A stretch of DNA of 63,859 nucleotides, from positions 1 to 63,859 of the forward strand of contig NZ_JAUCZC010000023.1 in NCBI RefSeq assembly GCF_030373265.1, written 5' to 3'. Positions within the stretch are counted from its first letter, which is position 1. Every line of letters begins with the position of its first letter. This DNA is from Blastomonas sp. (lineage in GTDB: Bacteria > Pseudomonadota > Alphaproteobacteria > Sphingomonadales > Sphingomonadaceae). Below the pieces are notes generated by a model. The model saw only the letters and a list, made by a program, of their open reading frames with translations. It was not told the origin of the DNA and did no database searches. A program made the position numbers and the translations under genes. Of this stretch, positions 2,249 to 24,421 are shown piece by piece.

Positions 2249-3271
2249 TCAGGCGCGGTTCCGCAATCGCGCTTGAGCCAGTTCAGGAAACACCTTGCTC
2301 ACCTTGCCGATCAGATACTCGCCATAGGTGCCGATCGGTTCATGGATATCGAGGCCATCCCACCGCGTCTCGCGCGGAAACACTGACGGTGCCAGTTCGG
2401 GTAGCGGTTGCACCTCGGCCTGAAAGTCGGGGTCGAAGAAGAGCGGAAACGAATAGCGCGAGACGCCCGCCCGGTTGACGACGCGGTGCGGGGCGGAGCG
2501 AAATCGCCCTCTTGTCAGCCTTTCGAACATGTCACCAATATTTATGACCAGCGTGTCGGCCAACGGCGGCACCGCAATCCAGCCATCGCGGGTGCGGATT
2601 TCAAGGCCGCCCTTGTCGTCCTGCGCCAGCAGCGTCAGCAGCCCGTAATCGCTGTGCTCACCGACGCCGTAAGGCGCGGATTGAACCGTTTCGGGATCGG
2701 GTGCGGGATAATGGAACAGGCGGAACAGCAAGGTGGGCTGCGCGGTCAGACCCTTGGCGAAATGGTCTGCTTCCAAGCCCAGCGCCAGCGCACAGCCGCG
2801 CATGATCGCGTCAGCCGCGCGCACTGCTGCGGCCAGATAAGCGATAACTGCGTGGCGGAGTTCGGGCACTGAATCCGGCCAAAGATTGGCGCCGTGAAGC
2901 GGCAGGCCGGCACGTACCCTGGGATCCTCGAAGCCTAGCTCCTCACCGAGATACAGCCCCTCCTTGAGGTCCGGCAGTCCCGAGGTCAGTTCACCCTGAA
3001 CCGGAAACCAGCCCCGCCAGGCCGTGCCGCCCTTTGCCATGGCGATTTCGGCTTTGATCGCCTCAGGCAAGGCAAAGAAGGCTGCGCTTGCATCGCGCAG
3101 ATCAAGCAACAGCTTTAGGTCGATGCCGTGGCCCGTCGCATAGAAGAAGCCGAAATTGCTGCAGGCATGATCGATCTGTGCAGCCACCACGCGTTCCTGG
3201 TCAGGGTTGGTACGCTCGACCAGCGGCGCAATGTCGATAACGGGCAGCATGGCTGTCACGGCCTCGTTCAT
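2249..3271 (-). CDS. isopenicillin N synthase-like 2-oxoglutarate/Fe(II) dioxygenase
   Basis: This 340-aa protein has the DIOX_N domain (about residues 10-130; [11 protein letters not shown]) followed by a 2OG-Fe(II) oxygenase barrel. The iron facial triad is visible as H-S-D in [12 protein letters not shown] and the His in SAPHRVVN. The RYSFPLFF segment supplies the 2-oxoglutarate-binding Arg-x-Ser. Such enzymes hydroxylate or oxidatively cleave small molecules in the cytoplasm. The start ATG overlaps the SsuD stop (ATGA), so it is translationally coupled to a sulfonate monooxygenase. A role in oxidising a sulfur compound, or the product of the SsuD step, is inferred from context; the substrate cannot be read from sequence. 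Confidence 0.9.
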
Positions 3272-4431
3272 GACGGACCGGTCGCGAAGCGCGTCTTGCC
3301 GCTGGCCAGTGCGAATCCTCCGGTCTCACCAGCACGGCCCGGCGAGACCGCCGATGGCCTTGAGGTATCGTCACGGGCGATATCGAGCAGCGGAAATAAC
3401 AGCTCCGCCACGCGATAGGCTTCCTCCAGATGCGGATAGCCGGACAGGATGAAGGTCTCGATGCCGACATCGGCATATTCCGCGATCCGTTCGGCGAGGT
3501 TCTCAGCCGACCCCACCAGCGCGGTTCCAGCCCCGCCGCGGACCAAACCGACCCCGGCCCAGAGGTTGGGGGCAACCGTCAGCCTGTCTCGCCGCCCGCC
3601 GTGCAGTGCCTGCATCCGCTGCTGGCCAACAGATTCGCTCTGGCTCTGCGCGGCCTGCGCTCGCGCGATCGTCGCATCATCCAGCCTGCTGATCAGCCGG
3701 TCAGCCTCGGCCCATGCCGCCCCCTCTGTCTCGCGCACGATGATGTGCAGCCGGATGCCGAACCGAACCTCGCGGCCGTGCTTGGCGGCAGCGGCGCGCA
3801 CATTGGCAATCTTGGCAGCGACATCGGCCACGGGCTCGCCCCAGGTGAGATAGTGGTCGATATGCTTGCCGGTCAGCGCCACGGCTGGCTCTGATGATCC
3901 GCCGATATAGAGCGGCGGTCCGCCCGCCTGGACCGGTGCGAACAGCAGCTCGGAAGCTTCCGCAAACAGATGCTCGCCCTGATAATCGACGGCTTCGCCA
4001 GTCATCAGACGCCGCCATACGGCCACGAATTCTTCCGCCAGCGCATAGCGGTCTGCGTGCGCAAGATCGACGCCGTCCGCGCGAAACTCGCTGCGGTCGC
4101 CGCCTGCGACGATGTTCACAAGAAGCCGCCCGCCACTGATCCTGTCGAGCGTTGCGGCTTGGCGCGCGGCGAACAGCGGCGATGTGACACCCGGCCGCAC
4201 GGCGACCAAGAACTTGAGCCGCTGGGTCAGTGGCACCAATGCGCTTGCGACCACCCAACTGTCTTCGCAGGTCTGACCGGTTGGCAACAGCGCGCCTTCA
4301 AATCCCAGTCGGTCGACCGCTTGGGCCACCTGCGCCAGATAGGAGAATTCGGTGGGGCGGGATCCTTCTGCTGAACCAAGCCAACGCCCATCGCCATGGG
4401 TTGGGATGAACCAGAATGGGCGAATGCTCAT
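3268..4431 (-). CDS. ssuD: FMNH2-dependent alkanesulfonate monooxygenase
   Basis: SsuD uses reduced FMN and O2 to cleave alkanesulfonates to aldehyde plus sulfite. The 387-aa protein follows E. coli SsuD (381 aa, from memory) along its length: [10 protein letters not shown] at the N-terminus, TCEDSW with the conserved active-site Cys (Cys55 here), [23 protein letters not shown], and [19 protein letters not shown] near the phosphate site. I start at MSIRPFWF (4431); the longer frame adds unrelated residues. It sits between the PhnD-like protein (64 nt upstream) and the dioxygenase (4-nt overlap). No flavin reductase SsuE is seen in the window, so reduced flavin must come from elsewhere. Confidence 0.95.
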
Positions 4432-4495
4432 GCGGGTGCTCCAGTGGAATGAGGCATTGTCGCAGAGTACCTGCCGGAAGCCTGGACCAACAGCG

Positions 4496-5311
4496 TCATG
4501 CGACAGGTGCTGCAAAGTTGATCGGCCGGGATGCACGTTCGATCTCGATCGTCTCGTTATAGGCTTCCGGCAGGATGGGTTCTACGCCATCGAGAAACAG
4601 CGCTGCCCGCGCATCTGCAAGTTCAGGCGCTTCCATTGCCGCAAACAGGGCATGCTGCACGAGCGCGGCGATCGGCTGAGGTGTCGATATTGAAGTGACG
4701 AAGGGAAGCGCGGGGACGCTGCGGGAAATCGCGATGATCTTCAGTTGCGCAGCAAGGTCCGGATAAGCTCGCGCCAGTGCAGCAAAACTGACCGCGTCGA
4801 TGGAAGCGATGTCGCCTTGGCCGAGCGCCACGGACCACATGCTTGCGACATGGCCGCCGGTGAAAAGGATATCACCAAAAAATGGTCTGTAGGCGGCAAG
4901 GTCCGACACGGTATGGCGCAGCAGGTTCATCCCCGTGTTCGACTGCGCATCGTTGACCGCTGCCGTGGCCCTGCGAAACTCAGCCAAGCTGGCGCGTGGG
5001 TCACTCGACCTGGCTATGATCAAGCTGCGGTGCCGGGTGCCCTCACAATATGCGGCGTTGTAGCGCGGCACGGCAAGCAGTTGCAGACGATCCGAGTAAG
5101 ACCTCGCGAAAGGATAGCCGCAGCATTGTCCGAATAGCAAAGCGGGGTCCTGCCACTGCGCTTCGACACTGCGTTGCCGCTGCAATCGATCAGGTATGCC
5201 TTCGAGCCCTTCGGACTTCAGGCGGTATGCAATCCAGGCCCACAGCGCATCGTTGCCAGCCTGTTGCTGGGGATGGTCATACATGCCGAACATGGCGAAA
5301 TAGGCGCTCAT
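4496..5311 (-). CDS. PhnD/SsuA-type substrate-binding protein without signal peptide
   Basis: This 271-aa protein resembles the phosphonate-binding fold (PF12974 type). Features include FGMYDHPQQ near the N-terminus, a GQCCGYPF segment, [10 protein letters not shown] at the lobe hinge, [27 protein letters not shown], and a C-terminal helical lobe. Periplasmic members start with a signal peptide, but here the domain begins at residue 5 with no hydrophobic leader. No ABC permease or ATPase lies nearby. It may therefore be a cytoplasmic ligand-binding or chaperone protein, or a sensor, for the sulfonate handled by the coupled SsuD. Its start overlaps the desaturase stop (ATGA), tying it to the operon. 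Confidence 0.78.
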
Positions 5312-6216
5312 GATGCTTCGCCTCGATAATCGGGATGAACAAGGTCGTCATGCACGCGGAATGCAAAGCGCCGGATAACGCTCCAGTAGGAGCGGTAGAC
5401 CGGGCCGCGCACCGCTGATCCGCGTTCGCGCAGCAATCGCTCATTGAAGCCGGGCAAGCGGTACCAAGCAAGATCCGGCCGGGCATGATGTGCCGCATGG
5501 AGATTGTTGTTCAGGTACAGGAGGGCAAGCGGACCGCCGCGCTCCACCGTCGCCACGCGCGCAGCGGCATCCGCATCAGCGCGGTGCTCTGCAAAACTGC
5601 GCAGCAACGAGAGCGAGGTGCCGGGCAAGACGAAGCAGAGGATATACTGACCCAGCCCCAGGCCGCAGTGGTCAAGCCAGATCAGAATTGCCAACACGCC
5701 CCCGGCATGCGGCAACCAGTCACGCAGAACACCACCAGGTTGACGGTAAGCTCGGATCAGTTCGCTCCCCAGAAAGCGAAAGATCGACAGGAAAGGCCCG
5801 AGCAGCAGCCGACCGATCAGGCTCTGCTGCACTTTCTCGATAAACCAAACCAGCGTGCCGCTCTTGGCAAGATAGCGCGATTCCGGATCGTCGAACGGGT
5901 CGGTCGCGTTGCGGGTTGCATGGTGCGCGATATGGCTGTCTCGGTAGATGCTGTAGGGCAGCCACAGGCTGTACGGAGCCCAGCCCAGTAGGGTGTTGAT
6001 CGCTCGGCTTCGCGTCGGGTGGCCGTGGATCGTCTCGTGCTGGAGCGAATTGTGCCATGCGATGATCCAGCCGCCGGACAGGAACAGCAGCAAGGGTGGG
6101 ATCTTGTCATGCCACGCGGTGAGCGCAAACCAACTGGCATGGATGACAACGGCCAGCGCGACCGTCGGCGATTCAACGGTACGCCGAATTACAGGTGCGA
6201 CATTGCGTTTACGCAT
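5308..6216 (-). CDS. fatty acid desaturase-family membrane di-iron enzyme
   Basis: This 302-aa membrane protein (PF00487 type) shows three histidine boxes: HNSLQHETIH, HIAHHATRN and NNLHAAHHARP. Hydrophobic segments between them anchor the di-iron centre at the membrane. Relatives desaturate or hydroxylate acyl chains and related hydrophobic substrates. I choose MRKRNVAP (6216) as start; an in-frame GTG at 6324 would add 36 residues with no family look. A 34-codon ORF in another frame (6326 to 6222) ends 5 nt before this ATG, so coupling is possible. It is first in the operon with the PhnD-like protein, SsuD and the dioxygenase. Its substrate, perhaps a sulfolipid or long-chain sulfonate, is unknown. 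Confidence 0.85.
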   Translation of the reverse strand: MRKRNVAPVIRRTVESPTVALAVVIHASWFALTAWHDKIPPLLLFLSGGWIIAWHNSLQHETIHGHPTRSRAINTLLGWAPYSLWLPYSIYRDSHIAHHATRNATDPFDDPESRYLAKSGTLVWFIEKVQQSLIGRLLLGPFLSIFRFLGSELIRAYRQPGGVLRDWLPHAGGVLAILIWLDHCGLGLGQYILCFVLPGTSLSLLRSFAEHRADADAAARVATVERGGPLALLYLNNNLHAAHHARPDLAWYRLPGFNERLLRERGSAVRGPVYRSYWSVIRRFAFRVHDDLVHPDYRGEAS

Positions 6217-6221
6217 CACGC

Positions 6222-6326
6222 TCACGCCCAACTCTCGGCCACGTCCCGCGGCAGGGACGATGCACCGTGTGAAGGCGCTTGTTGAACTGCGCAGCATATC
6301 GATGACAGTCTGGTCGTAGAGCACAT
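6222..6326 (-). CDS. putative cysteine-containing leader ORF (34 codons)
   Basis: ATG at 6326 opens a 34-codon frame that begins MCSTTRLSSICCAV and ends with TGA 5 nt before the desaturase ATG. It carries three Cys codons, two of them adjacent. It lies downstream of a promoter-like element shared with the other sulfur operon. An AAGG 7 nt before the ATG is a weak ribosome binding site. The layout would suit a leader peptide whose translation reports Cys-tRNA supply and controls the coupled gene. It may be a chance frame overlapping the in-frame extension of the desaturase. I know of no homologue. Confidence 0.35.
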   Translation of the reverse strand: MCSTTRLSSICCAVQQAPSHGASSLPRDVAESWA

Positions 6327-8060: not shown

Positions 8061-8504
8061 ATGTTAAGCCAGAAAGTCCGCTACTCGATCCGTGCTCTAC
8101 AGCACCTTGCCGACCATTATGGCCAAGGCCTTGTGCAGCTTGACGAAATCGCCGCTGCCCAGAAGATACCTCCCAAGTTCCTGACCGTAATCCTTTCTGA
8201 AATGGCGCGGGCGGGACTCGTGCAGTCGCATCGCGGCAAGGATGGAGGCTATGCGCTGGGCCTGCCTCCGGTGGATATCCGTTATGGCGATATCGTCCGG
8301 CTGACGCGTGGTTCGCTGGCATTGGTGCCTTGCGCCAGCCGGTATGCCTATGAAAAGTGCAAGAATTGTCTGGAAGAGGACGAGTGCCGCTTGCGAGCAT
8401 TGATGCTCAAAGTGCGGGATGAAACTGCGCTGATCCTCGATCAAATCACCTTGGCGCATTCCATTCAGCCTGTCCCACCGTTCGGGCCTGCTATCGCACA
8501 TTGA
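8061..8504 (+). CDS. Rrf2-family transcriptional regulator with four-Cys cluster region
   Basis: This 147-aa protein starts with the Rrf2 winged-helix domain: MLSQKVRYSIRALQHLA, then IPPKFLTVILSEMARAGLVQSHRGKDGGY, whose GKDGGY is the wing. The C-terminal segment holds four cysteines in VPCASRYAYEKCKNCLEEDECRL, which could bind an iron-sulfur cluster as in IscR/NsrR relatives or act as thiol switches. Rrf2 proteins also include CymR, the cysteine-metabolism repressor of Firmicutes. Here it sits just upstream of a DUF2292 protein and a TonB receptor and downstream of the divergent promoter region. It is the best candidate for the sulfur-status regulator of this locus. The ligand is not known. 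Confidence 0.88.
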   Translation: MLSQKVRYSIRALQHLADHYGQGLVQLDEIAAAQKIPPKFLTVILSEMARAGLVQSHRGKDGGYALGLPPVDIRYGDIVRLTRGSLALVPCASRYAYEKCKNCLEEDECRLRALMLKVRDETALILDQITLAHSIQPVPPFGPAIAH

Positions 8505-8615
8505 GACGCTGACAAGCAAAACTATCTTGCCAACTCAAAAGGTAGAGATTAGCCCTGTGACTGCGGGCCATGCTGCATGCAGCCGGTCCGCACCAGTTTT
8601 TACAGGGGTTTCACG

Positions 8616-8783
8616 ATGCCACCTTCAAAGCTTACCGAGTCGCTTGCTGCTCCGCAGCGCGATGTTCCGATCGCTGCAATCGCTGACGCCATTTCAAAGC
8701 TTCGCTTCGGCGCGGTGGTTCTGACCGTCCACGATGGCAAGCTGGTCCAGATGGACGTGACCGAGCGCCAGCGCTTCAGCTGA
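8616..8783 (+). CDS. DUF2292 (YezD-like) small protein
   Basis: This 55-aa protein carries the DUF2292 core: IADAISKLRFGAVVLTVHDGKLVQMDVTERQRF. The single compact domain ends with the typical K-x-x-x-x-x-x-T-E-R-x-R-F motif. In Bacillus, YezD lies with sulfur-assimilation genes; its molecular function is unsettled. AGGGGT 7 nt before the ATG at 8616 fixes the start. It lies between the Rrf2 gene and the first TonB receptor. A second, divergent copy occurs at 13891-14088 in the same locus, supporting a real role in sulfonate or sulfate-ester use. Confidence 0.85.
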   Translation: MPPSKLTESLAAPQRDVPIAAIADAISKLRFGAVVLTVHDGKLVQMDVTERQRFS

Positions 8784-8920: not shown

Positions 8921-11407
8921 ATGTCCATTTCCATTACCGCGCGCACGTCCGTTGCTGCGCTGGCCATCGCGCTTGCGTTTCAGGCTCCGGCATTCGCTGC
9001 TGACACCGACGGCGCCGCAGCCGAAGCCGAAGTGCAGACAGACGATATTGCCGAAGCTCAGCAACAGCCCGGCAACGTGATCATCGTCTCCGCCCGCCGC
9101 CGCGACGAATCCTCGCAGGACGTGCCGATTGCGCTCTCGGTGGTCGATGTGACCACGCTCGACAACACCGGCAGCTTCAACGTCAGCCGGTTGACGCAAT
9201 TGCAGCCGACATTGCAGTTCTACTCCTCCAACCCGCGCAATTCGGCGATCAACATCCGCGGGCTCGGCGCGCCGTTCGGCCTCACTAATGACGGCATCGA
9301 ACAGGGTGTCGGCATCTATATCGACGATGTCTTCGTCGGCCGGGTGGCGGTGGCGACGCTCGATTTCCTCGATATCGCGCAGGTCGAGACGCTGCGCGGG
9401 CCGCAGGGCACGCTCTACGGCAAGAATACGACTGCGGGCGCGATCAACATCACCTCGAAGGAACCGAGCTTCGATTTCGAGGGCCGCGCCGAGGTCACCG
9501 CAGGCAATCTCGAGTTCCGCCAGGCCAAGGCATCGGTGTCCGGGCCGCTGTCTGACACTGTCGCTGTGCGTTTCGGGGTTGCGACCACCGATCGGCGGGG
9601 CACGATCTTCAACGTCGCCACCGGCACCAACGTGAACGAATTGAACAATCTGGGGATTCGCGGCACGCTGCTGTGGAAGCCGAGCGATTCCCTCAAGGTG
9701 ACGCTGGCGGGCGACTACAACCGCCAGAACCCCGAATGCTGCGCGCAGATCTATGCGCGCTACGGCAGCACCCAGCGCCCGGCCAACCGCCAGTTCCCCG
9801 CGCTGTCGGCGGCGTTCGGCTATGCCCCGCCCAGCCTCGACGCGTTCGACCGGGTGACCGATGTCGATGCCGAACTCAGCGCCAAGAGCATCCTGGGCGG
9901 CGCATCGCTCAAGGTCGAATGGGATGTCGGGCCCGGCACGCTGACCTCGGTTTCCGCCTGGCGCTTCTGGGACTGGACCCCGTCGAACGACCGCGATTTC
10001 ACCGGCCTGCCGATCACGCTCAAGGTCAACAATCCCTCGCAGCAGGAGCAGTTCACGCAAGAGGTGCGCTATGCCGGATCGCTGGGCGACCGCATCGACT
10101 TCGTTGCAGGCGTGTTCGGCTTCTATCAGACCATCGACACCCAGGGCATCCAGGAGCAGGGGCCGGCCGCGAGCCGCTGGCTGCTCAACCCGACCAGCGC
10201 GCTCGCCAACAACCCGGCGGTGCTCAACGGGCTGGTTGCCAACAACGATATCGGGTTCAAGAACACCAGCGTGGCCGCCTTCGGTCAGCTCAGCTGGAAG
10301 GTCACCGATGCGTTCACCATCCAGCCGGGAATCCGCATCAACTACGACAAGAAGACCGGATCGTACAACTCGGTGGTGACCGGAACGGCCTCGAACGGCA
10401 CCCGCCAGCTGGTCACCTTTAACGGGCCGTTCGCCAACGATCCGTGGATCGTCGCGCAGCGAGGGGTGCTGGCCCCGCAATTCTTCGAGCCCGAATTCAG
10501 CGACTGGAACCTGTCGTACGACCTGACCCTGGCGTATCAGATCGCTCCAGACATTCGCAGCTATGCCACTTATGCTAAGACCTTCAAGACCGGTGGCATC
10601 AACCTGTCGGGGGTTCCGAACGACGCGGCGGGCAACCCGCTGCTCGCAGCCGGCGCTGTCGCTCCCGAGAAGGTCGATCATTTCGAGGTCGGATTGAAGA
10701 CGCAGTTCTGGGACCGCCGCGCGACGCTCAACCTTGCCGGTTTCTGGACCGAAATCGGAGACTATCAGGCGACGGTCAACAACGGCCAGCTGGGCGTGCT
10801 GCGCGGCTATCTCGCCAATGCGGGCAAGGTGCGGGTGCGCGGGATCGAGGCGGACTTCAGCGTGCGCCCCTCGGAGCGGTTCAACGCCTATGTCAGCGGC
10901 GCCTATACCGACCATGAGTATGTTCGCTTCGTCGATGCCCCATGCCCGCCCGAACTGGCTGGCGGCACGACGGTGGGTGCCGGGCAGACACCCGGAGCCC
11001 CTGGCGTTCCTGGCGCGCTGAGCCCGGCGAACTGCGATATCTCGGGCCAATGGCTGCCCGGCATTTCGAACTGGGCGTTCTCTTATGGTGCAGAGGCCAA
11101 TGCGCCCGCCTCGATCTTCGGGCTCGACGGCTTTGCCTATGTCGGGTTCGACGGCAACTACCGCTCCAAATTCTCGTCGAACCCCTCGCGCTCGATCTAC
11201 ACCGACATCCAAGGCTATGCGCTTACCAACTTCCGGCTGGGCTATCGCACCGATGACGGGCTCAACGTCTTCGCTTGGGTGCGCAACGCCTTTGACGTGA
11301 ACTATTTCGAGCAGCTCGCGGCCAACACCGGCGGCAACACCGGCCTGATAGCCGGACAACCCGGCGACCCGCGCACCTTCGGCCTGACCCTTGCCTCCAG
11401 TTTCTGA
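8921..11407 (+). CDS. TonB-dependent outer-membrane receptor (organosulfur locus, copy 1)
   Basis: This 828-aa protein has a signal peptide (ITARTSVAALAIALAF, then APAFA-A), then a plug domain with NVIIVSARRRDESSQDVPIALS. Further on come NPRNSAINIRGLG and VETLRGPQGTLYGKNTTAGAIN at about residues 70-185. A long beta-barrel follows, ending in a terminal Phe (LTLASSF) as needed for BAM assembly. The receptor would import a bulky or scarce substrate with TonB-ExbBD energy. The start at 8921 is chosen because the preceding 38 in-frame residues are not signal-like. The TauE/SafE permease gene follows 27 nt downstream. The substrate is probably a sulfonate or sulfate ester, from neighbours only. Confidence 0.93.
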   Translation: MSISITARTSVAALAIALAFQAPAFAADTDGAAAEAEVQTDDIAEAQQQPGNVIIVSARRRDESSQDVPIALSVVDVTTLDNTGSFNVSRLTQLQPTLQFYSSNPRNSAINIRGLGAPFGLTNDGIEQGVGIYIDDVFVGRVAVATLDFLDIAQVETLRGPQGTLYGKNTTAGAINITSKEPSFDFEGRAEVTAGNLEFRQAKASVSGPLSDTVAVRFGVATTDRRGTIFNVATGTNVNELNNLGIRGTLLWKPSDSLKVTLAGDYNRQNPECCAQIYARYGSTQRPANRQFPALSAAFGYAPPSLDAFDRVTDVDAELSAKSILGGASLKVEWDVGPGTLTSVSAWRFWDWTPSNDRDFTGLPITLKVNNPSQQEQFTQEVRYAGSLGDRIDFVAGVFGFYQTIDTQGIQEQGPAASRWLLNPTSALANNPAVLNGLVANNDIGFKNTSVAAFGQLSWKVTDAFTIQPGIRINYDKKTGSYNSVVTGTASNGTRQLVTFNGPFANDPWIVAQRGVLAPQFFEPEFSDWNLSYDLTLAYQIAPDIRSYATYAKTFKTGGINLSGVPNDAAGNPLLAAGAVAPEKVDHFEVGLKTQFWDRRATLNLAGFWTEIGDYQATVNNGQLGVLRGYLANAGKVRVRGIEADFSVRPSERFNAYVSGAYTDHEYVRFVDAPCPPELAGGTTVGAGQTPGAPGVPGALSPANCDISGQWLPGISNWAFSYGAEANAPASIFGLDGFAYVGFDGNYRSKFSSNPSRSIYTDIQGYALTNFRLGYRTDDGLNVFAWVRNAFDVNYFEQLAANTGGNTGLIAGQPGDPRTFGLTLASSF

Positions 11408-13868: not shown

Positions 13869-13890
13869 AGTGTCCAAACCTGAAGCATGA

Positions 13891-15858: not shown

Positions 15859-16800
15859 TTATTCGGCCGGTTCGAGCTGTGCTGCGCGCTCCTTCTTCAC
15901 CGTGCGGCTCTGGCGGCCGTCGATGCCGACCGGGATGCTGCCGGCGATGGTCGCACGGCGCAGCGTGCGGCGTTGCAGGCCGAAATCGGCGATGGCGCGG
16001 TGCTGGGTGGCGCGGTTGTCCCAGATCGCCACATCGCCCGCACGCCAGCGCCAGCGCACAGTGTTTTCCGGTTTGGTGATGTGATCCTGGAGGATGTTGA
16101 ACAGCCGCTGCGAGTCCGCGCTGTTCAGCCCGACGAACTGCTTGACGAAATGGCCGAGCAGCAGGCTGCGCTCGCCGCTGACCGGGTGGACGCGCACCAC
16201 CGGATGCTCGGTCTCGTAAACGGTCGAGGCGAAGACCTTGCTGTATTCCTCGGATCGTTTGGCATCCTTGCTGCCCAGCACGGCGGCATAGTCGTACTTG
16301 TTCGAATGCACCGCCCACAGGCCATCGACCAGCGTCTTCAGCGCTTCGGGCAGCTCTTCATAGGCGGTGACGCCGTTGGCCCAGAGCGTGTCACCGCCCG
16401 CCTGCGGAATGGTGATGGCGCGCAGGATCGAGGCTTCGGGATAGGCATCGACGAACGTCACGTCGGTGTGCCAGCTGGAGGCTGCGTAACCCTCTTTCGT
16501 GTCGAGATCGAGCAGGTAGTGCGATCCTTCGGCGACAGGCACAGTGGGGTGTGCCACCGGATCGCCCAGGCGCGCGGCAAAAGCTTCGTGCCGGGCATTG
16601 TCGAGTCCGTCCTGATCGCGGAAGAACAGCACCTTGTGGCGGACCAAAGCGGTCTTGATCGCAGCGATGCTGTCCTCATCAAGCTCGCCCGAAAGCGCGA
16701 CGCCGCGCACCTCTGCACCGATGCGTCCGGCGACGGGGACGATGTCCAGCGGGCTTTGCGGGTCGGCGGCATTGATGAAGCTGTTGATGGGATTGGTCAT
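15859..16800 (-). CDS. TauD/TfdA-family 2-oxoglutarate dioxygenase (copy 1)
   Basis: This 313-aa enzyme of the TauD/TfdA family couples 2-oxoglutarate decarboxylation to hydroxylation next to a sulfonate or sulfate ester, releasing sulfite or sulfate. Visible features are IGAEVRGVALSGELDED, LFFRDQ, the iron motif SSWHTDVTF (His-x-Asp), GGDTLWANGVTAYEEL, the distal iron His in TQHRAIADF and the 2OG-binding RRATIAG arginine. The start MTNPIN at 16800 has AGGAG 8 nt upstream. It follows the second TauD-type gene by 43 nt. The two copies diverge enough to suggest different substrates, for example a sulfonate and an alkyl sulfate (AtsK-like). Which is which cannot be told from sequence. Confidence 0.93.
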   Translation of the reverse strand: MTNPINSFINAADPQSPLDIVPVAGRIGAEVRGVALSGELDEDSIAAIKTALVRHKVLFFRDQDGLDNARHEAFAARLGDPVAHPTVPVAEGSHYLLDLDTKEGYAASSWHTDVTFVDAYPEASILRAITIPQAGGDTLWANGVTAYEELPEALKTLVDGLWAVHSNKYDYAAVLGSKDAKRSEEYSKVFASTVYETEHPVVRVHPVSGERSLLLGHFVKQFVGLNSADSQRLFNILQDHITKPENTVRWRWRAGDVAIWDNRATQHRAIADFGLQRRTLRRATIAGSIPVGIDGRQSRTVKKERAAQLEPAE

Positions 16801-16843
16801 GGTTTTTCTCCTGGTTCGAATGAGGGGTCGGGGGGCCTGTCGG

Positions 16844-17722
16844 TCAGGTTGCTTGGGAGCCGGGACCGTAAGGACGGTCGCCAACGATCGTCACACGTTC
16901 CATGTGGCGCGGCTCATCATAGTCGGGGACGGCGTAGTGCTGGGTCGCCTGGTTGTCCCAGAAGGCGATCGACCCCGGCCTCCAGCTCCAGCGGACCTGG
17001 AATTCGGGACGTTTGATCTGGTCGAACAATCGTGAGAGCAGGGCCGTGCTGGCCTGCGGGCTCAGACCCACGATGTGCCGCGTGAACACCGAGTTGACAT
17101 AGAGCGCCTTCTCGCCGGTCTCCGGGTGAATGCGGACCACCGGATGTTCGACCGGAGGAAACTCGTTGCGCAGTGCCTCGCGCTTCTCCTCGCTGTCGAG
17201 GAACTTGAGGAAGATGCTGGGATCGTGCAGCGCGGTCAGGCCGTCGATCTGTTCGCGGATCGCCTCGGGCAACTGCGCATAGGCATCGACAGCGTTGGCG
17301 AACACCGTGTCTCCGCCCAGCGATGGCGATTCAATCGCGCGCAGCACCGCGCCTGCCGAAGGATTGGGGCGGAAGGTGGTGTCGGTGTGCCAGTTGCTGT
17401 CGGTCGTTCCCTTGTACCGCTCGCGCAACTGGTTCGACACCAGAGGCAGGATTTCAGGGAAGTCGGGGTGCGAGAAGACCGGGTGCACCTCAAGCGAACC
17501 GAAGTTCGCAGCAAAGGCGATATGCTGTTCAGGCGTCAGATGCTGGTCGCGGAAGAACAGCACCCGGTATCGGAGCAGCGCCGTTTTCAGCCCGATGCGA
17601 TAGGCTCCGGACAGCGGCTGCCGCAGGTCGATACCGGTCACCAGCGCACCGAGGCTGGGTTGCAGCGGTTCGAGGCTGACGGTGCCGGGTGATTTGCCAA
17701 AATCAAAGGACTGGTAGGTCAT
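16844..17722 (-). CDS. TauD/TfdA-family 2-oxoglutarate dioxygenase (copy 2)
   Basis: This 292-aa TauD/TfdA enzyme has LGALVTGIDLRQPL, LFFRDQHLTPEQ, SNWHTDTTF with the His-x-Asp iron ligands, and GGDTVFANAVDAY. It also has HIVGLSPQAS, the distal His in TQHYAVPDY and the Arg in MERVTIVGDRPYG. The length fits taurine dioxygenase (about 283 aa). The start ATG at 17722 is followed by a family-typical N-terminus. It lies between the GPH symporter (18 nt upstream) and TauD copy 1, so all three are probably co-transcribed. This supports cytoplasmic desulfonation of what the symporter brings in. Confidence 0.93.
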   Translation of the reverse strand: MTYQSFDFGKSPGTVSLEPLQPSLGALVTGIDLRQPLSGAYRIGLKTALLRYRVLFFRDQHLTPEQHIAFAANFGSLEVHPVFSHPDFPEILPLVSNQLRERYKGTTDSNWHTDTTFRPNPSAGAVLRAIESPSLGGDTVFANAVDAYAQLPEAIREQIDGLTALHDPSIFLKFLDSEEKREALRNEFPPVEHPVVRIHPETGEKALYVNSVFTRHIVGLSPQASTALLSRLFDQIKRPEFQVRWSWRPGSIAFWDNQATQHYAVPDYDEPRHMERVTIVGDRPYGPGSQAT

Positions 17723-17740: not shown

Positions 17741-19138
17741 TTATTCAGCGGGGACTAGTGCGGCTTCGCGCGCGTCGAGTTCGCGGCGGATTTCGGCATG
17801 GCGGCTCTCGTCGAGCGGGAAGCCTGCGATCAGCCAGGCGGACAGGGCGTGGGCGAGTGCCGGGCCGAGGGCAAAGACCAGCAGCAGGCCGGTCAGCGCT
17901 TCAGGCGTGTTGACCGCCTTGGGATCGAAACCGAGCCAGGCAACCAGCGGCAATGCGATGCCGATGGCGACCGCGGTGGCGGATTTGCCTGCCAGGCTGA
18001 ACACTGAGTAATAAAGCCCGGCGCGGTCGTTGCCGGTATCGAGGCGGTGCTTGTCGGCAACATCGGCGACGATGGCGCGCAGCATCAGATTGCCTGAGCC
18101 CTGTGCCAGACCCTGCGCCAACGTCAGGCCGAGCAGGAGAGCCATATTGTCGGGTGTCACCAGCAACAGGCCCAGGTTGATCACCACCTGCACCAGTTCG
18201 CCAGCCACTGCCGTGCGGTGCTTGCCAAGGCGGTAGCCGATCTTGAGCCAGATCGGCCCTGCCAGCACGCCGAACACGAACTGGAACAGGAAGAGTCCCG
18301 CCGCCCATTCGGGCCGACCCATATAGAAGGTGACGAAAAAGACGATCAGCGCGGAGCGGATATGCTGGCCCAGCGTGACGGCGAAATCCGACGCAAGCAC
18401 CCGGAGCAAAAGCCGGTCGCCGACAAGCGAGCGGAAGAGGCTTCCAAACGGCTGGCGCGGTGCGGCGACGACAGGTGGCGGGGTTTCGCGGAAAGACGTC
18501 AGCGTCAGAAACAGTGCAGGCAAGATCGTGACAGCAACCAGCCCGCCCATGAGCGCCAGTTTGAGCTTGCCGTCGCCGGGGCGGTACTGATCGGCAATTG
18601 TGGGCAGGATCAAGGTGATCAGAAGAGCAGCTGCGGTAACCACGGTCTGGAATGTCGCGACACGCGTGCGCTCATGATACCGGCCAGAAATTTCGCCCGA
18701 CCAGGCGAGGAACGGGATCTGTACCGCTGTCCAGCCCAGGTAAAAGAAGAACAGCACGATCGCGAGATATGCGGGCGTCACGGACAGAGGCGGGAAGAAC
18801 AGGAAGTAGGCCGACGAGGCAAACAACAGACCGCCCGCTGCAATCCACGGCTTGCGCCGTCCAAAGCGCGAGCGGGTGCGGTCGCTGAGCACCCCCATGA
18901 ACGGATCGAGGATCGCATCCCACAGCCGACCGACCAGAAAGATGAGGCCAATGGTGGTCAGCGGCAGACCGTGGTCCTGCGCATAGACCGGGGGCAGATA
19001 GACCCCGAGCGGGAGCCCGGCTGCTGCGACCGGCACCGCGATTGCGGAGAAGCGCGTCAGTCGCCAGCTGGACAGGCGTTGCTCGTCTTGCACCGGCTTT
19101 GACGCTGCAGCGTGCGGGAAGGGGAAGATCGTTGCCAT
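17741..19138 (-). CDS. GPH-family (MelB/YihO-like) cation symporter
   Basis: This 465-aa MFS-fold transporter of the glycoside-pentoside-hexuronide:cation symporter group has about twelve membrane segments. The diagnostic loop DAILDPFMGVLSDRTRSRFGRRKPW is at about residues 60-85. GPH members carry sugars; YihO, linked to sulfoquinovose import in E. coli, belongs here, so a sulfonated substrate is credible. Start MATIFPFP at 19138; the longer frame adds 25 unlike residues. It lies 10 nt after the TonB receptor stop and 18 nt before TauD copy 2. With no ABC transporter in the locus, it is the most likely inner-membrane step of the pathway. Confidence 0.85.
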   Translation of the reverse strand: MATIFPFPHAAASKPVQDEQRLSSWRLTRFSAIAVPVAAAGLPLGVYLPPVYAQDHGLPLTTIGLIFLVGRLWDAILDPFMGVLSDRTRSRFGRRKPWIAAGGLLFASSAYFLFFPPLSVTPAYLAIVLFFFYLGWTAVQIPFLAWSGEISGRYHERTRVATFQTVVTAAALLITLILPTIADQYRPGDGKLKLALMGGLVAVTILPALFLTLTSFRETPPPVVAAPRQPFGSLFRSLVGDRLLLRVLASDFAVTLGQHIRSALIVFFVTFYMGRPEWAAGLFLFQFVFGVLAGPIWLKIGYRLGKHRTAVAGELVQVVINLGLLLVTPDNMALLLGLTLAQGLAQGSGNLMLRAIVADVADKHRLDTGNDRAGLYYSVFSLAGKSATAVAIGIALPLVAWLGFDPKAVNTPEALTGLLLVFALGPALAHALSAWLIAGFPLDESRHAEIRRELDAREAALVPAE

Positions 19139-19148
19139 GGCGTTTCCC

Positions 19149-21563
19149 TCAGATCTTGGTGCGCAAGGTTGCGCCGATGGTTCTTGGTTCACCGATGATC
19201 GCCGTGATCGCACCGGTGTTGGCGGGGCTCAGCGTCTGGAAATATTCGGTGTCGGTGAGGTTGCGTGCCCAGATCGACAGGTCGATCGCGCCGTCATCCA
19301 GCCGCACGCCGATGCGCGCGTTCAGCACGCCATAGCCCTCGACCTCGCCATAGCGGGACAGGCTGACAGTGGTGTTGAACGAAGACCGGTGCGAGAAATC
19401 CGCGTGGCCATAGAGTTCAAGCGTGCGGCCATCGCGCTCGAGCAACGGCTGCGATGCATCGAGGCCCAAGGTGTAGGTGAACTTCGGCACGCCCGGAATC
19501 TGCTCGCCTGTGAGGTCCTGAATACCGCCGAGGTTGAGGTTTTCAGGCGCCTGCGGGGCGTTGCGGTAGTTGAGGAAGGTCGCATCGACATACGATCCCG
19601 AAGCGGTGAAGCTCAGCCACTCAGTGGGCGCTATGACCAGATCGGCCTCGACCCCGCGCGAGCGCACCTTGGGGATGTTGGCGATATACTGTCGGACGTT
19701 GACCGTACCTGGCGTGATCTCGGTGATCGCAGTCTGGTAATCGGTGGTCTCGGTCCAGAAGCCGGCGAGGTTGAAGGTGACGCGCCGGTCCCACAGCTGG
19801 CTCTTGAAGCCGAGTTCGAAGTTGTCGACCTTCTCTGGCCGAACGTCGGGGTCGATGCCGGCGGGCAGGTTGGTGAGGTTGAGACCGCCCGACTTGTTGC
19901 CGCGCGAGTAGGTGCCGTAGGCCAGCAATTCCGGCGTTGGCTTCCACGAGAGGCTGAGCAGGCCCGACAGGCTGTTGTCGGTAAAGCTTGTTTCGAAGCT
20001 GGTGACGGGGTTGAACTGGTTGCGGATCGCCAGTGCTGCAGCCGCCTGCCCCGCGGGAAGAGTGGCCAGGTTGACGCCCGCCACATGGAACTGGCTGAAC
20101 GCGCCCGATTTCTTCTCGTTGGTGAAACGCAGACCGCCGGTCAGTGCCAGCGTGTCGGTGATGTTCCAGTCGGCCTGGCCGAAAAAGGCGAGGCTCTTGG
20201 TCTCGGGCGTCGAGATCGAGTTGGCCTCGAACCCATTGAGCGCGGCGTTGCCGACGGCAGCGGGCACGGTTGGCAGGTTCCAGTTGGCGGCGTTGGCGCC
20301 ATAAGCCGTAGCCCCGAAGCCGCGCACGATCTGCCAGAAATAATAGGCACCGACGACGTAATCGATGGTCTGCTTTCCGGTCGAAGCGAGCCGCACCTCC
20401 TGACTGAACTGCCGCTGCCGGTTTGCCTGTTGCGCCTTGGTGACGATCGGCAGCGCGGTCGCGTCGCCATCATTGGCCGGGTTCCAGTCCCACCATCGAT
20501 AGGCGGTGATCGACGTCAGCGCGGCATTACCCAGGTCCCAGTCGATCTGGCCCGACGCGCCATAGCTGTCCATATTCGACTGGTACGGGGAGTTGGAATC
20601 GCCAATGCGTGCGAATGGATCGACCGGCAGCGGGGTGTATCCGGCGCGCGCGGCGCGCTGCAGGAAGTTGTTCGGGATGGCCGCGCCGTTGTCGTAGTTC
20701 GAGAAGATCCCCGCGAAGACGTTGAGCACGAAATCCTGTTTCTGGCGGGAGAAGTCACCAATCAGCTTGATGTCGAGATTGCTCGCCGGACGGATCAGCA
20801 ACTGGCCGCGCGCCGAAAAATTGTCGTAGTTCTGGGCGTCGGCGCGCTGGGTGACGTTGTAGAGAAAGCCGTCGCGGTGCGTGTCGGCCAGGGTCAGGCG
20901 GAAGGCGACGACATCACCGATCAGCGGGCCCGAAAGCGATCCGCGAACCTGGTGATAGCCAAAATCACCCAGCGTGGCCTCGCCCTGGAACTCGGGCTCG
21001 AACACCGGCGCGCGGGTAGTGATGTTGATCGCGCCTGCGGTCGTGTTCTTGCCGAACAGCGTACCCTGCGGGCCGCGAAGCACCTCGATCTGCTGGAGAT
21101 CGACCAGATCGAACTGCGACTGGCCGACGCGGCCATAATAGACGTTGTCGATGTACACCCCGACGCCGTTCTCCAGCCCGTCATTGGTCAGCGCGACATT
21201 GGAACCGAGCCCGCGGATGTTCACGTTGGTGTTGCGCGGGTTGAAGCTGAACACCTGAAGGCTGGGGACCAGCTGCTGGATCTGGCCGAGCGTGAAATTA
21301 CCGGTCGCCTCCAGCTGGGTGTTATCCACCACGCTGAGCGCAATCGGCACGTCCTGCGCACTTTCCTCGCGCCGCCGCGCCGTGACGACGATGGCAGCAG
21401 AAGCAGCCTCGGCCTCTTCGGCAACGGTCTCTCCGGTGACGGACTGGTCTTCGGCTGCGTGAGCGGGGTGAGCACTCAACAATGCGATTGCGGCCGACCC
21501 CAGCAGGGCAGCGAACCGTCGCTTGCGGACAAGCCGGGCTTTAAGTTCGGATGTATAGGTCAT
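19149..21563 (-). CDS. TonB-dependent outer-membrane receptor (organosulfur locus, copy 2)
   Basis: This 804-aa receptor has a long signal peptide (RRFAALLGSAAIALLSA, then HPAHA-A). Its plug contains IVVTARRREESAQDVPIALS, NPRNTNVNIRGLGSN and VLRGPQGTLFGKNTTAGAIN. The C-terminal barrel ends in ATLRTKI rather than an aromatic residue, which is slightly unusual. The plug is strikingly like that of the receptor at 8921-11407, including the asparagine-rich NPRN-NIRGLG stretch, so the two are paralogues. The start overlaps the stop of a 72-aa ORF (ATGA). The permease and dioxygenase genes follow closely, which points to a sulfonate or sulfate-ester substrate. Confidence 0.93.
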   Translation of the reverse strand: MTYTSELKARLVRKRRFAALLGSAAIALLSAHPAHAAEDQSVTGETVAEEAEAASAAIVVTARRREESAQDVPIALSVVDNTQLEATGNFTLGQIQQLVPSLQVFSFNPRNTNVNIRGLGSNVALTNDGLENGVGVYIDNVYYGRVGQSQFDLVDLQQIEVLRGPQGTLFGKNTTAGAINITTRAPVFEPEFQGEATLGDFGYHQVRGSLSGPLIGDVVAFRLTLADTHRDGFLYNVTQRADAQNYDNFSARGQLLIRPASNLDIKLIGDFSRQKQDFVLNVFAGIFSNYDNGAAIPNNFLQRAARAGYTPLPVDPFARIGDSNSPYQSNMDSYGASGQIDWDLGNAALTSITAYRWWDWNPANDGDATALPIVTKAQQANRQRQFSQEVRLASTGKQTIDYVVGAYYFWQIVRGFGATAYGANAANWNLPTVPAAVGNAALNGFEANSISTPETKSLAFFGQADWNITDTLALTGGLRFTNEKKSGAFSQFHVAGVNLATLPAGQAAAALAIRNQFNPVTSFETSFTDNSLSGLLSLSWKPTPELLAYGTYSRGNKSGGLNLTNLPAGIDPDVRPEKVDNFELGFKSQLWDRRVTFNLAGFWTETTDYQTAITEITPGTVNVRQYIANIPKVRSRGVEADLVIAPTEWLSFTASGSYVDATFLNYRNAPQAPENLNLGGIQDLTGEQIPGVPKFTYTLGLDASQPLLERDGRTLELYGHADFSHRSSFNTTVSLSRYGEVEGYGVLNARIGVRLDDGAIDLSIWARNLTDTEYFQTLSPANTGAITAIIGEPRTIGATLRTKI

Positions 21564-21977: not shown

Positions 21978-22004
21978 TCAGGTCTTACACATGATCGTTC
22001 GCAT
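21978..22004 (-). CDS. putative eight-residue leader peptide ORF with a Cys codon
   Basis: An ATG at 22004 preceded by GGGGAG (6-nt spacing) opens the frame MRTIMCKT and stops. It lies within a roughly 400-nt untranslated leader upstream of the 72-aa ORF and TonB receptor. The GGGG of its ribosome binding site can pair with CCCC 10 nt away. The short Cys-containing frame, good ribosome binding site and location suggest a regulatory leader peptide. Chance cannot be excluded for so short a frame. Confidence 0.4.
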   Translation of the reverse strand: MRTIMCKT

Positions 22005-22140
22005 CGTTTTCTCCCCAAAGAGACGTGGGGGGAACACGGTGCCTGGCGCTGTCGCCTTCAGCATCGCGCGCTTTAGCCTTTGGTAACGCGGAGCAAGCTG
22101 CTTCCCATTCAAATGCCGCGGGCCTCATTTGGGCCTTAGT

Positions 22141-22167: not shown

Positions 22168-22176
22168 AGTTACCTA

Positions 22177-22284: not shown

Positions 22285-23034
22285 TCAACCGGCGATCATC
22301 TTAGCGCCCGCCGCGAGCAGCAGCAGCGCCAGCACGCCCCGCATCCATAGATCCGGTAACAGGCGACTGCCGACAAACGCACCGATCACGCCGCCTGCCG
22401 CGACTGCGACAATCCAGTACGACATAGCGGGAGGAACCTGGCTCCAGGTCGCATAGCTGCCAAGCAATGCTGCACCCGAGTTCATCAGATTATAGACTGC
22501 GGTGGTGGCCGCCATCTGCCGGACTGTGCCCCAGCGCATGGCGAGGATCACGGGCGCAAGAAATACGCCGCCGCCTGTCCCGGTGGTGCCCGACACAAAG
22601 CCGATAACTGCGCCGGTGGCGAGTGCTGGCCAGAAAGGCGCTTTGATGGCGTCGGTATCCTGAGGCAGTTTGCGCTGGACGGCGCTGCGCACCATCAAGC
22701 CTGCGGCAACGATCAGCAGACCACCCACCAGCGGCAGATAAACATCGCCGGGCAGCTGCGTTGCGCCGCCGATCAGCGAAAACGGAATGCCCAGGACGGC
22801 AAACGGATAGATGTCGCGCCAGGAAAGCCGACCCACCCGCCAGAATTGATATGTGCCGATTCCCGCAACCAGCAGGTTGAGCATCAGCGCGGCACTCTTC
22901 ATCGCGATCGGGTCTATTCCCGCCAGCCCGAACACCGCGATGTAGCCTGTCGCCCCGGCCTGACCGACCGAGGCATAGATCAACGCAACCACGAACAAAC
23001 CAACCGTGACCCAGATGTTCTTCAGCGATTCCAT
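22285..23034 (-). CDS. TauE/SafE-family permease, second copy
   Basis: This 249-aa polytopic membrane protein has IYASVGQAGATGYIAVFGLAG near the start and GFVSGTTGTGGGVFLAPVIL near residue 150, the two half-repeats of TauE/SafE permeases. It shows little similarity to the copy at 11435-12205 beyond the fold. AAAGGGA before the ATG at 23034 supports the start; 28 in-frame upstream residues are discarded. It lies 55 nt after the chrA stop, in the same direction. Export of sulfite or another oxyanion is likely, and import is possible. Confidence 0.85.
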   Translation of the reverse strand: MESLKNIWVTVGLFVVALIYASVGQAGATGYIAVFGLAGIDPIAMKSAALMLNLLVAGIGTYQFWRVGRLSWRDIYPFAVLGIPFSLIGGATQLPGDVYLPLVGGLLIVAAGLMVRSAVQRKLPQDTDAIKAPFWPALATGAVIGFVSGTTGTGGGVFLAPVILAMRWGTVRQMAATTAVYNLMNSGAALLGSYATWSQVPPAMSYWIVAVAAGGVIGAFVGSRLLPDLWMRGVLALLLLAAGAKMIAG

Positions 23035-23089
23035 TCGTGTCCCTTTATAGCCCGCCGCACGGCATGGCTTATGCCCACCCTGTGTGGTG

Positions 23090-24421
23090 CTACAAGCTTC
23101 CCAGCGCGAGCCCCGCAACAGCCAGAACGGCGAGCATGCGGAAGATGCTCCATTTCAGTGCGAACAGGATTACGGCTGCCGCCATCGTCAGCACAGCTGC
23201 GCGCCAATCCAGGCTGGTGAGATCGGGCCACTGAATGCGCAATGGCCCAAATTCGGTACTGCCCACCCGCGCGAACAACACGTGCAAGGCAAACCAGACC
23301 GAGAGGTTGGCGATCACGCCGACCACCGCTGCGGTCAGCGCTGCGAGGCCCCCCTTAAGGCGAGTGGCCTGCTGCAGCCGCTCGATCCAGGGGGCGAAGG
23401 TGAAGATCCACAGGAAGCACGGCGCGAACGTCACCCAGGTGGTGAGTGCCGCGCCGATGATCCCCGCCACGATCGGCGAGAATGGCTCGGGCGCGCGGAA
23501 CGCGGCGAGGAACCCGACATGCTGGGTGACGAGGATCAGCGGCCCCGGCGTGGTCTCGGCAAGTCCCAGCCCGTCGGCCATCTCGCCCGGCTGCAGCCAG
23601 CCAAACGTCTGTACCGCCTCCTGCGCCATATAGGCGAGCACCGCATAGGCACCGCCGAAGGTGACGATCGCGAGCTGCGAGAAGAACAGCCCTATATCCC
23701 AGAGCACATGGTCTTGCCCCAGCGTCGCCAGCACGAGCGCCAGTGGCAAAGCCCAGATCGCGCCCCATAGTAGGATCGTGCGCCCCATTGAGACGAACGT
23801 TGGACGCGGAGCAAGTGCCTCGCCCGTGGAAGGCTTCAGCGCCAGCCAGTCCGGGCGATACGCCGCGATGATCATGCCCAGGGCGCCCGCGCCCAGCACG
23901 ACCAGCGGGAAGGGCAGGTTGAACAGGAACAGCCCCAGGAACGCCGCCAATGCCAACGCCTGTTTGAACCGGGTGTTGAGCGCGCGCGCGCCGATCCGGA
24001 TCAGCGCCTGCACCACGATGGCAAGCACGGCTGCCTTGATGCCCAAGAACAGCGCGGCGAACCAGTCGAGATTGGCCGCGAGCGTATACAGCGCGGACAG
24101 CATGAGCATCAGCAATGCACCAGGGATCACGAACAGCAACCCCGCCGCCAGCCCGCCCTTCAACCCGTGAAGCCGCCATCCAATCCACGTCGCCAGCTGC
24201 TGTGCTTCGGGGCCGGGCAGCAGGTGGCAGAAGTTCAGCGCGTGCAGATATTGCTCTTCGTCGACCCAGCGGTGCTTCTCGACAACCTCGCTGTGCATCA
24301 GCGCGATCTGCCCAGCAGGGCCGCCAAAGCTGAGGCACCCGATGCGCGTAAACACGCGCAGTAGGTCGAAAAACTCGGGGGTCGATGCGGCCGGGTTTGG
24401 AATGGTCTGTGTCGTCGCCAA
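23090..24421 (-). CDS. chrA: chromate/oxyanion transporter of the CHR family, two-domain
   Basis: ChrA-type proteins export chromate, and some may handle sulfate-like oxyanions. The 443-aa protein has two homologous halves: FTRIGCLSFGGPAGQIALMH near residue 20 and AIVTFGGAYAVLAYMAQEAV near residue 240, followed by GLAETTPGPLILVTQHVGF. It has about ten to twelve hydrophobic stretches. I prefer the TTG at 24421 as start, because GGAGG lies 9 nt upstream. The ATG at 24448 would place that site inside the coding region. Its neighbour is a TauE/SafE permease, so an oxyanion-export pair serving the sulfur genes is plausible. Confidence 0.88.
   Translation of the reverse strand: MATTQTIPNPAASTPEFFDLLRVFTRIGCLSFGGPAGQIALMHSEVVEKHRWVDEEQYLHALNFCHLLPGPEAQQLATWIGWRLHGLKGGLAAGLLFVIPGALLMLMLSALYTLAANLDWFAALFLGIKAAVLAIVVQALIRIGARALNTRFKQALALAAFLGLFLFNLPFPLVVLGAGALGMIIAAYRPDWLALKPSTGEALAPRPTFVSMGRTILLWGAIWALPLALVLATLGQDHVLWDIGLFFSQLAIVTFGGAYAVLAYMAQEAVQTFGWLQPGEMADGLGLAETTPGPLILVTQHVGFLAAFRAPEPFSPIVAGIIGAALTTWVTFAPCFLWIFTFAPWIERLQQATRLKGGLAALTAAVVGVIANLSVWFALHVLFARVGSTEFGPLRIQWPDLTSLDWRAAVLTMAAAVILFALKWSIFRMLAVLAVAGLALGSL

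Follow-up and report, generated by a model that had tools for sequence, protein, structure and literature searches.

Gene content of the locus

The stretch of DNA analysed here (the window) is the 63,859-nucleotide contig NZ_JAUCZC010000023.1 (C23) from the draft genome (3.66 Mb in 58 contigs; completeness 95.8%) of Blastomonas sp., a member of the Sphingomonadaceae, and our subject is a set of sulfur-related genes at 2249-24421, in particular an operon headed by a TonB-dependent receptor and preceded by a leader RNA. The evidence throughout is comparative and drawn from sequence, and the kin of the window in our searches, among named loci, are sphingomonads. The gene set is composite, with four parts: a conserved operon, a group containing SsuD, a group headed by an Rrf2-family regulator, and a TauE-ChrA pair. 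A sequence-only reading of the same DNA had treated SsuD, two TauD-family proteins, a sulfatase, two DUF2292 proteins, two TauE permeases, ChrA, two related TonB receptors and a GPH-like carrier as one organosulfur locus without ATP-binding cassette (ABC) importer genes. All of the genes named are present, the receptors share 39% identity, and neither ABC permease nor ABC ATPase genes were found in 2249-24421, the only PF00005 matches of the window lying at 60889-62250 and PF00528 having no match in the window. The lone binding protein, of the PhnD type, was likewise correctly described: by eye, its N-terminus lacks a signal peptide. The conserved operon and its surroundings comprise the following features.

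21563-13167, minus strand: conserved operon, recognized by gene order and arrangement
22029..22122, minus strand: leader RNA, putatively related to the SAM-II aptamer (R1 101 bits; SAM_alpha 13.3 bits)
21978..22004, minus strand: leader open reading frame (ORF) of eight codons (MRTIMCKT), with a Shine-Dalgarno-like GGGGAG at ~22016
19149..21563, minus strand: TonB-dependent receptor TBDR2 (PF00593, PF07715), first long gene of the operon, 5' of the GPH-like gene in relatives
17741..19138, minus strand: GPH-like MFS_2 carrier (PF13347 246 bits; TIGR00792 185 bits)
16844..17722, minus strand: TauD2, TauD-family dioxygenase (3pvj 242 bits; 1gqw 233; AtsK 167)
15859..16884, minus strand: TauD1, AtsK-type alkylsulfatase by best match (1oij 420 bits versus 1gqw 201)
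14135..15763, minus strand: AtsA-type arylsulfatase, Cys-type, with a signal-like N-terminus (1hdh 569 bits; CSPTR)
13891..14088, minus strand: DUF2292 protein (PF10055 25 bits, cut-off 22)
13167..13916, minus strand: class-I glutamine amidotransferase (PF00117)
12273..12926, minus strand: serine hydrolase (PF06821), 240 bases past the last gene of the operon

The operon and its enzymes

Judged by its gene arrangement, 21563-13167 is an operon, read in the order TBDR2, GPH-like carrier, TauD2, TauD1, arylsulfatase, DUF2292 protein and amidotransferase, with successive intergenic gaps of 10, 18, -41, 95, 46 and -26 bases (the start codons of the carrier at 19138 and of the sulfatase at 15763 are our choice). 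Tyr73 and Asp94 are taurine-binding residues of TauD, with Asn95 named beside them, and AtsK and its relative Rv3406 favour medium-chain alkyl sulfates, with Rv3406 not using taurine, according to the available portion of PMC3675115. TauD1 is nearer to Pseudomonas putida AtsK (1oij) than to E. coli TauD (1gqw); it carries the HxD iron motif as WHTD, and both taurine-binding positions compared are replaced, with Val in place of Tyr73 and, by eye, Ala near Asp94. Its assignment as a taurine dioxygenase was dropped, AtsK being the nearest match by 420 to 201 bits. TauD2 scores higher with the taurine dioxygenase 3pvj and the E. coli-type TauD than with AtsK, and differs from TauD at the residues aligned by eye to Tyr73, Asp94 and Asn95; a gene with TauD2 as best match is present in 14 of the 80 named carrier loci described below.

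The arylsulfatase contains the CSPTR motif and matches P. aeruginosa AtsA (1hdh) with 569 bits. By eye, the AtsK-type enzyme has no signal peptide, and so its substrate must be cytoplasmic. Sulfate esters are what enzymes of the AtsK and AtsA types act on, and the core enzymes therefore suggest these esters rather than sulfonates; the sequence-only reading had offered both, and its sulfate esters are favoured here, with sulfonates receding as the main substrate. The DUF2292 protein of the operon is presumably OscA-like. OscA is a small protein linked to chromate and sulfate starvation, as far as the accessible text of PMC2996968 goes.

The GPH-like carrier is the sole inner-membrane carrier of the operon, and passes Pfam MFS_2 (PF13347) far above the cut-off (246 versus 27 bits). 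Sugars are the best-known substrates of GPH carriers. In the alignment two charged residues of MelB (which we take to be Asp59 and Lys377) are retained, while the sugar-binding Asp (presumably position 124) is replaced by Gln, making sugar transport less likely and leaving the link to sulfosugar carriers drawn by the earlier reading unsupported. The lysolipid carrier MFSD2A is as close a solved relative as MelB.

Conservation of the carrier operon

The carrier protein was searched against 199 genomes of the family (E<=1e-60, then identity of at least 55%), giving matches in 27, of which 17 passed the identity threshold. A TBDR2-type sequence adjoins the carrier in all 17, and a TauD1-type sequence in 16, truncated at a contig end in G196. 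Two of these matches are partial: in G144 (Sphingobium sp. SYK-6, locus L135) the TBDR2 match covers only ~147 bases and the carrier match lacks a start, while G101 has only fragmentary matches to both receptor and carrier. The SYK-6 operon looks damaged, and its leader RNA, TauD2, AtsK and sulfatase matches persist.

When named genomes were scanned using an alignment of the carrier, 97 relatives emerged and the best 80 were retained; some of these loci stop at contig ends. A same-strand TonB receptor lies within 3 kb upstream of the carrier in 74 of the 80 loci, and a same-strand TauD/AtsK gene within 2.5 kb downstream, also in 74; a sulfatase match is present in 52. SsuC/TauC permeases were found in one locus (L090) and CysUWA-type genes in one more (L102), ATPase-only matches (SsuB in L124 and L125; CysA in four loci including L102) not being counted as importers.

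Interchange of the carrier and an ABC importer

The converse search used AtsK as query against the same 199 genomes (E<=1e-90, then identity of at least 70%), and gave matches in 21, of which 18 remained. The stretch examined was 20 kb per locus (7.2 kb in G193, and the window itself for the host). Within it, 15 of the 18 genomes include the carrier gene in the operon and lack any match to TauA/B/C or SsuA, while three (G061, G189 and G088) have SsuA-SsuC-SsuB homologs in the operon and no carrier; none has both. These ABC-type operons keep the order TBDR2-(TauD2)-AtsK-sulfatase, followed by SsuA-SsuC-SsuB. The chance of the 15/3 split is 1 in 816 if the genomes are independent, and since they are related this figure is only a guide. 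Three weaker AtsK loci (49-60% identity) contain neither the carrier nor the ABC set, and two family genomes, G196 (contig end) and G101, have the carrier with no AtsK match at E<=1e-90.

Among 398 genomes of the phylum, AtsK was matched at E<=1e-100 in 18, of which 16 lie outside the family. Within ~10 kb of these 16 AtsK genes the carrier was never found, whereas an Ssu/Tau-type permease was present in 11, and a TBDR2-like receptor (36-38% identity) in six. Trees were built from 35 loci, giving 32 AtsK rows and 24 TBDR2 rows after exclusion of short or weak ones. In the TBDR2 tree, ABC types are nested inside GPH types in two places, requiring at least two changes. As read from gene order and these trees, swapping between carrier and ABC importer took place, its number and direction being unsure; the exchange of carrier for ABC importer is well supported by comparison, and the carrier likely does the importer's job.

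The five PF00528 permeases of the host appear, by their surroundings, to belong to osmoprotectant, Pst (two), Mod and urea-carboxylase-linked systems, the last being the only SsuC/TauC-type match at E<=1e-15. The sequence-only reading had held that a complete ABC sulfonate importer elsewhere would count against it, and apart from the urea-carboxylase-linked system no Ssu/Tau/Cys-type ABC importer was found in the draft genome. SulP sulfate carriers are encoded on contigs C13, C46 and C19.

The leader RNA upstream of TBDR2

The leader RNA begins with the P1 5' arm at 22122, followed by a conserved core, an extra hairpin, and the P2 3' strand ending at ~22030. The core GCTAAAGC or its reverse complement lies within 600 bases of the TBDR2 start in 48 of the 62 loci with a placed start. 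Forty-five copies align over 91 columns with a mean identity of 87%, and an ORF of 5-11 codons (start chosen by script) stands at the place of the leader ORF in 39 of them. The pair counts exceed those of all 500 shuffles, with six pairs changed on both sides versus 1.0 expected; slid controls gave 1-4, and related sequences can also produce such an excess. Columns 78-92 can pair alternatively, either within a hairpin or with the Shine-Dalgarno sequence and start of the short ORF, and among 21 offsets this second register ranks first, with 69% of cells versus 53% for the runner-up.

In the family, R1, our search model for this leader, found 41 copies in 30 of the 199 genomes, with a copy at the operon in all 17 GPH-type and all three ABC-type genomes. 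The host has one accepted copy, that of the window (101 bits); a second candidate on C12 (20 bits) was dropped, as it lies inside a gene taken from its sequence as mfd. A palindromic operator upstream of TBDR2 was also considered and discarded, since only weak dyads were seen, in at most 7 of 63 sequences, and the k-mers led instead to the leader RNA. Neither an intrinsic terminator nor a sigma-70 promoter was found at 21500-22400. Between leader and TBDR2 lies a 72-codon ORF (21560-21778, minus strand) with a YPxSLQQ-like stretch as in small ORFs of relatives; ORFs of this kind match in 7 of 84 loci at E<=0.01, and a small ORF at the equivalent place in L242, with a similar stretch, matches one more locus.

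Of the 21 leader copies away from the operon, 20 were examined for genes downstream. TonB receptors follow the leader in L206, L209 and L210, and after two unknown ORFs in L207 and L215. In L217 the leader is followed by a hexapeptide-transferase gene and then a receptor-sulfatase set, and in L212 by an NMT1-type protein, a receptor and two SsuC-type permeases; NMT1_2/permease genes also occur ~4 kb past the leader in L213 and L218. Homologs of the amidotransferase of the window follow the leader in L216, L219 and L221, and a homolog of its serine hydrolase in L220. Other genes after the leader encode a methyltransferase (L208), a beta-eliminating lyase (L225), a prolyl-tRNA-synthetase-like ORF (L222) and a hydrolase (L223), while those in L211, L214 and L224 could not be assigned to a family. 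The L212 operon also contains SsuD-like monooxygenases and NMT1-type proteins that we take to be DszB-like, and from its gene content perhaps serves aromatic sulfur compounds.

Relationship of the leader to SAM-II

A search of Rfam with the leader came back empty, suggesting a brand-new RNA class, an idea abandoned once its kin matched SAM_alpha (RF00521). R1 matches occur in 66 of 385 genomes of the class, including the host, and those outside the family are weaker (29-56 bits). For nine class loci outside the family matched by R1, Rfam assigned SAM_alpha in five. In L251 it scores 36.8 bits at the same place as the R1 match, above the gathering threshold of 36; of the other eight, four have SAM_alpha below gathering (E 0.00028 to 1) and four have none. 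The sphingomonad copies have the P1 5' arm. Twenty class leader matches were retrieved, and one gene-like downstream ORF was scanned in each of 10 loci, giving MetZ (two), MetN-like (three, below the model cut-off), MetX (one), MetY (two), CysG (one) and a LysR regulator (one). Because some of these kin match SAM_alpha and some stand near met genes, the leader is taken as a SAM-II relative, an assignment resting on intermediates and a conserved core.

The available text of PMC4239095 describes SAM_alpha on met genes and limits its reported occurrence to Rhizobiales and Rhodobacterales, in a survey that included seven Sphingomonadales genomes. The leader would thus place an RNA of this kind in an order where that survey reported no SAM-II, and would extend the family from methionine genes to the uptake of outside sulfur.

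The SsuD group and the tRNA-Glu insertion

The remaining features of the gene set and of its right-hand boundary are as follows.

2249..6324, minus strand: separate rare group of desaturase, PhnD-type binding protein, SsuD and 2-oxoglutarate dioxygenase
8061-12205, plus strand: Rrf2-DUF2292-TonB-TauE group
8061..8504, plus strand: Rrf2-family regulator (PF02082)
8577..8783, plus strand: DUF2292 protein (PF10055 51 bits)
8921..11407, plus strand: TonB-dependent receptor TBDR1, the relative of TBDR2 noted above
11435..12205, plus strand: TauE/SafE permease (PF01925)
22285..24448, minus strand: TauE/SafE permease and ChrA (PF01925, PF02417)
26972..28210, minus strand: P4-type tyrosine integrase (PF13356, PF22022, PF00589)
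28356-28430: tRNA-Glu, beside the integrase

SsuD passes TIGR03565 (566 bits, cut-off 518), and a search of the 199 family genomes (E<=1e-120) found such a protein in the host alone. The sequence-only reading had made SsuD part of the same system and expected it to co-occur in sphingomonads with TauD, carrier and receptors; with the carrier operon in 17 genomes and SsuD in one, this part does not hold. SsuD matches 880 plasmid records, 35 of them at 60-80% identity, and the matches listed, ten at 60-64%, are from Variovorax, Pantoea, Mesorhizobium and Klebsiella. A Sphingomonas hankookensis plasmid has the desaturase and binding protein as a pair with no SsuD, and the pair is also seen close to the operon in L120.

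The larger segment holding the sulfur genes ends at the integrase and tRNA-Glu (26972-28430). The tRNA-RecJ side is conserved in all nine genomes of the genus, including the host, while window 1-28184 has no match in the 14.5-15 kb left of tRNA-Glu in any of the five relatives compared (of eight); G157 matches the window from 28184 onward, and G001 a short piece from 28285. Since the relatives compared show no match to 1-28184 there, comparison indicates that the sulfur genes belong to a segment inserted at tRNA-Glu. Host contig C17 (80810-80856; L237) has a copy of the 3' end of this tRNA, with a flank like the integrase side of the window, which hints at a second or tandem element.

Several further observations concern the window. 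The Rrf2 regulator has an 84% paralog on contig C19 (L002, 162-605), near mod genes and a SulP gene. Both TonB receptor genes are overlain by full-length antisense open frames (8822-11359, minus strand, 845 codons; 19137-21617, plus strand, 826 codons), probably an effect of GC-rich codon use. Two neighbouring BLUF blue-light sensor proteins are encoded at 255-1212, and a hexapeptide-repeat fragment (PF00132, 96 codons) at 1952-2242 resembles the end of a serine acetyltransferase.

Interpretation

We consider it probable, from gene content and synteny, that the operon works like the Pseudomonas ats/sft sulfate-ester cluster, with the GPH-like MFS_2 carrier in place of the ABC importer. In this scheme TBDR2, energized by TonB, would move alkyl and aryl sulfates, perhaps with some sulfonates, through the outer membrane. 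The arylsulfatase, apparently secreted, would release sulfate from aryl esters in the periplasm, from where SulP carriers could import it, while the GPH-like carrier would use an ion gradient to bring intact alkyl sulfates through the inner membrane for oxidative cleavage by the cytoplasmic dioxygenases AtsK and possibly TauD2. By analogy with SAM-II, high S-adenosylmethionine would stabilize the leader aptamer and turn the operon off, and low levels under sulfur starvation would turn it on; the short leader ORF, ~415 bases before TBDR2, might relay the signal, for example, as a guess, by exposing the transcript to Rho.

The broader proposal, which we hold tentatively and at somewhat less than even odds, is that the divergent SAM-II-related RNA, with its additional hairpin and an eight-codon ORF whose start it can hide, switches a sphingomonad sulfur-scavenging regulon of TonB-receptor operons, in which the sulfate-ester operon accepts carrier or ABC importer interchangeably and offers a TonB-plus-symporter route for organosulfur. 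The ligand of the leader may have shifted from S-adenosylmethionine to another sulfur metabolite.

Several points weigh against these proposals. The carrier falls below the curated GPH:cation symporter cut-off (TIGR00792, 185 versus 231 bits), and might transport a different compound or act as exporter of a product. In L090 an SsuABC set adjoins the carrier, with neither TonB receptor nor AtsK, and the 80 named loci were found through the carrier, so that ABC-type operons could not appear among them. The AtsK tree unites the three ABC loci (99/100), conflicting with the TBDR2 tree, and the apparent lack of a further Ssu/Tau/Cys-type importer in the host was read from a draft that is 95.8% complete. 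SsuC/TauC-type permeases above 165 bits, a threshold of our own choice, were counted in 2 of the 17 operon-bearing genomes and in 18 of the 182 others, being no rarer where the operon is present; for this reason a genome-wide exclusion of ABC permeases was rejected, and the replacement proposed by the sequence-only reading holds for the operon, as its ABC-bearing sister operons indicate, and not for the whole genome. For the leader, SAM_alpha reaches 13.3 bits on the window copy (in register and on the same strand) versus a gathering threshold of 36, and Rfam did not report it (E<=10) for 14 loci with copies of the family leader. The folding of five single copies is not clearly better than that of shuffled sequences (z of 0.14 for the window, and -0.68, -1.60, -0.70 and 1.32). 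R1 had no match (E<=1) in 11 non-sphingomonad operon loci (L082, L087, L088, L090, L095, L101, L102, L118, L119, L122 and L130) or in nine further named operon loci, mostly Sphingomonas.

An unlikely alternative is a single integrated locus, SsuD included, for sulfonate uptake through the TonB receptors and the carrier. Gene content and closeness agree with it, as do the TauD-leaning scores of TauD2, SsuD-like genes (53-54% identity) neighbouring the operon in the Phenylobacterium loci L087 and L095, and the link of some sphingomonad TonB receptors to sulfonates in the accessible part of PMC7142613; the rarity of SsuD (one genome, versus 17 with the carrier operon), the sulfate-ester types of AtsK and AtsA, and the substitutions in TauD2 at the Tyr73, Asp94 and Asn95 places (by eye) argue against it. 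Equally improbable is that the carrier moves a compound other than the sulfur ester, such as a sugar or alcohol that the sulfatases release, while sulfur enters as sulfate through SulP. The secreted appearance of the arylsulfatase, the SulP genes of the host and the sugar substrates typical of GPH carriers would fit, but a cytoplasmic AtsK accompanies the carrier in most loci, an SsuABC-type set replaces it in three genomes, Gln stands in place of MelB Asp124, and MFSD2A is as near a relative as MelB. A chance patchwork of sulfur genes on a mobile island, devoid of joint function, is suggested by the integrase at tRNA-Glu, the unmatched 1-28184 in five of five relatives and the foreign-looking SsuD, but is very improbable given the order of TBDR2, carrier and TauD/AtsK preserved in dozens of other genomes.

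Much of the sulfur in soil is commonly present as sulfate esters, for which PMC3596284, within its available portion, describes an inner-membrane importer of the ABC type. If the symporter-like protein of the sphingomonad operon does import them, the energy coupling differs, and synteny offers a way to locate its gene in many sphingomonads. The leader RNA flags further operons of unassigned substrate.

Comparison with known systems

In a search of open-licence full texts, no paper on an operon or leader of this kind in sphingomonads was found. What is new is a carrier-for-ABC version of a known sulfate-ester scavenging system, for which we infer substrate and regulation. The known system is atsACBR-sftR-atsK-sftP of Pseudomonas sp. 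UW4, which, as presented in the excerpted text of PMC3596284, shares with the operon a TonB receptor, AtsK and an arylsulfatase in one cluster. By contrast, the operon has a GPH-like carrier and lacks the ABC importer AtsRBC, and it has a signal-like N-terminus on its arylsulfatase and a SAM-II-related leader, and lacks a LysR gene.

In PMC7142613, as far as its available text goes, some sphingomonad TonB receptors are tied to sulfonates either because they cluster with sulfanilic-acid-responsive receptors or through their gene context. These are likewise sphingomonad receptors proposed for organosulfur uptake, but no carrier, AtsK or operon is named with them there, unlike the operon here. 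MelB, other GPH sugar symporters and MFSD2A are MFS_2 relatives of the carrier by sequence, which differs from MelB and the GPH symporters in having sulfatases as partner genes and in scoring below the TIGR00792 cut-off. In our alignment, the leader shares with SAM-II the P1 arms, a U-rich loop, the GCUUGC and GCUAAAG core and the pseudoknot strands, and a further likeness is that its kin stand near metZ, metN, metX and metY; unlike SAM-II, it has an extra hairpin before the P2 3' strand, and in sphingomonads it precedes uptake operons.

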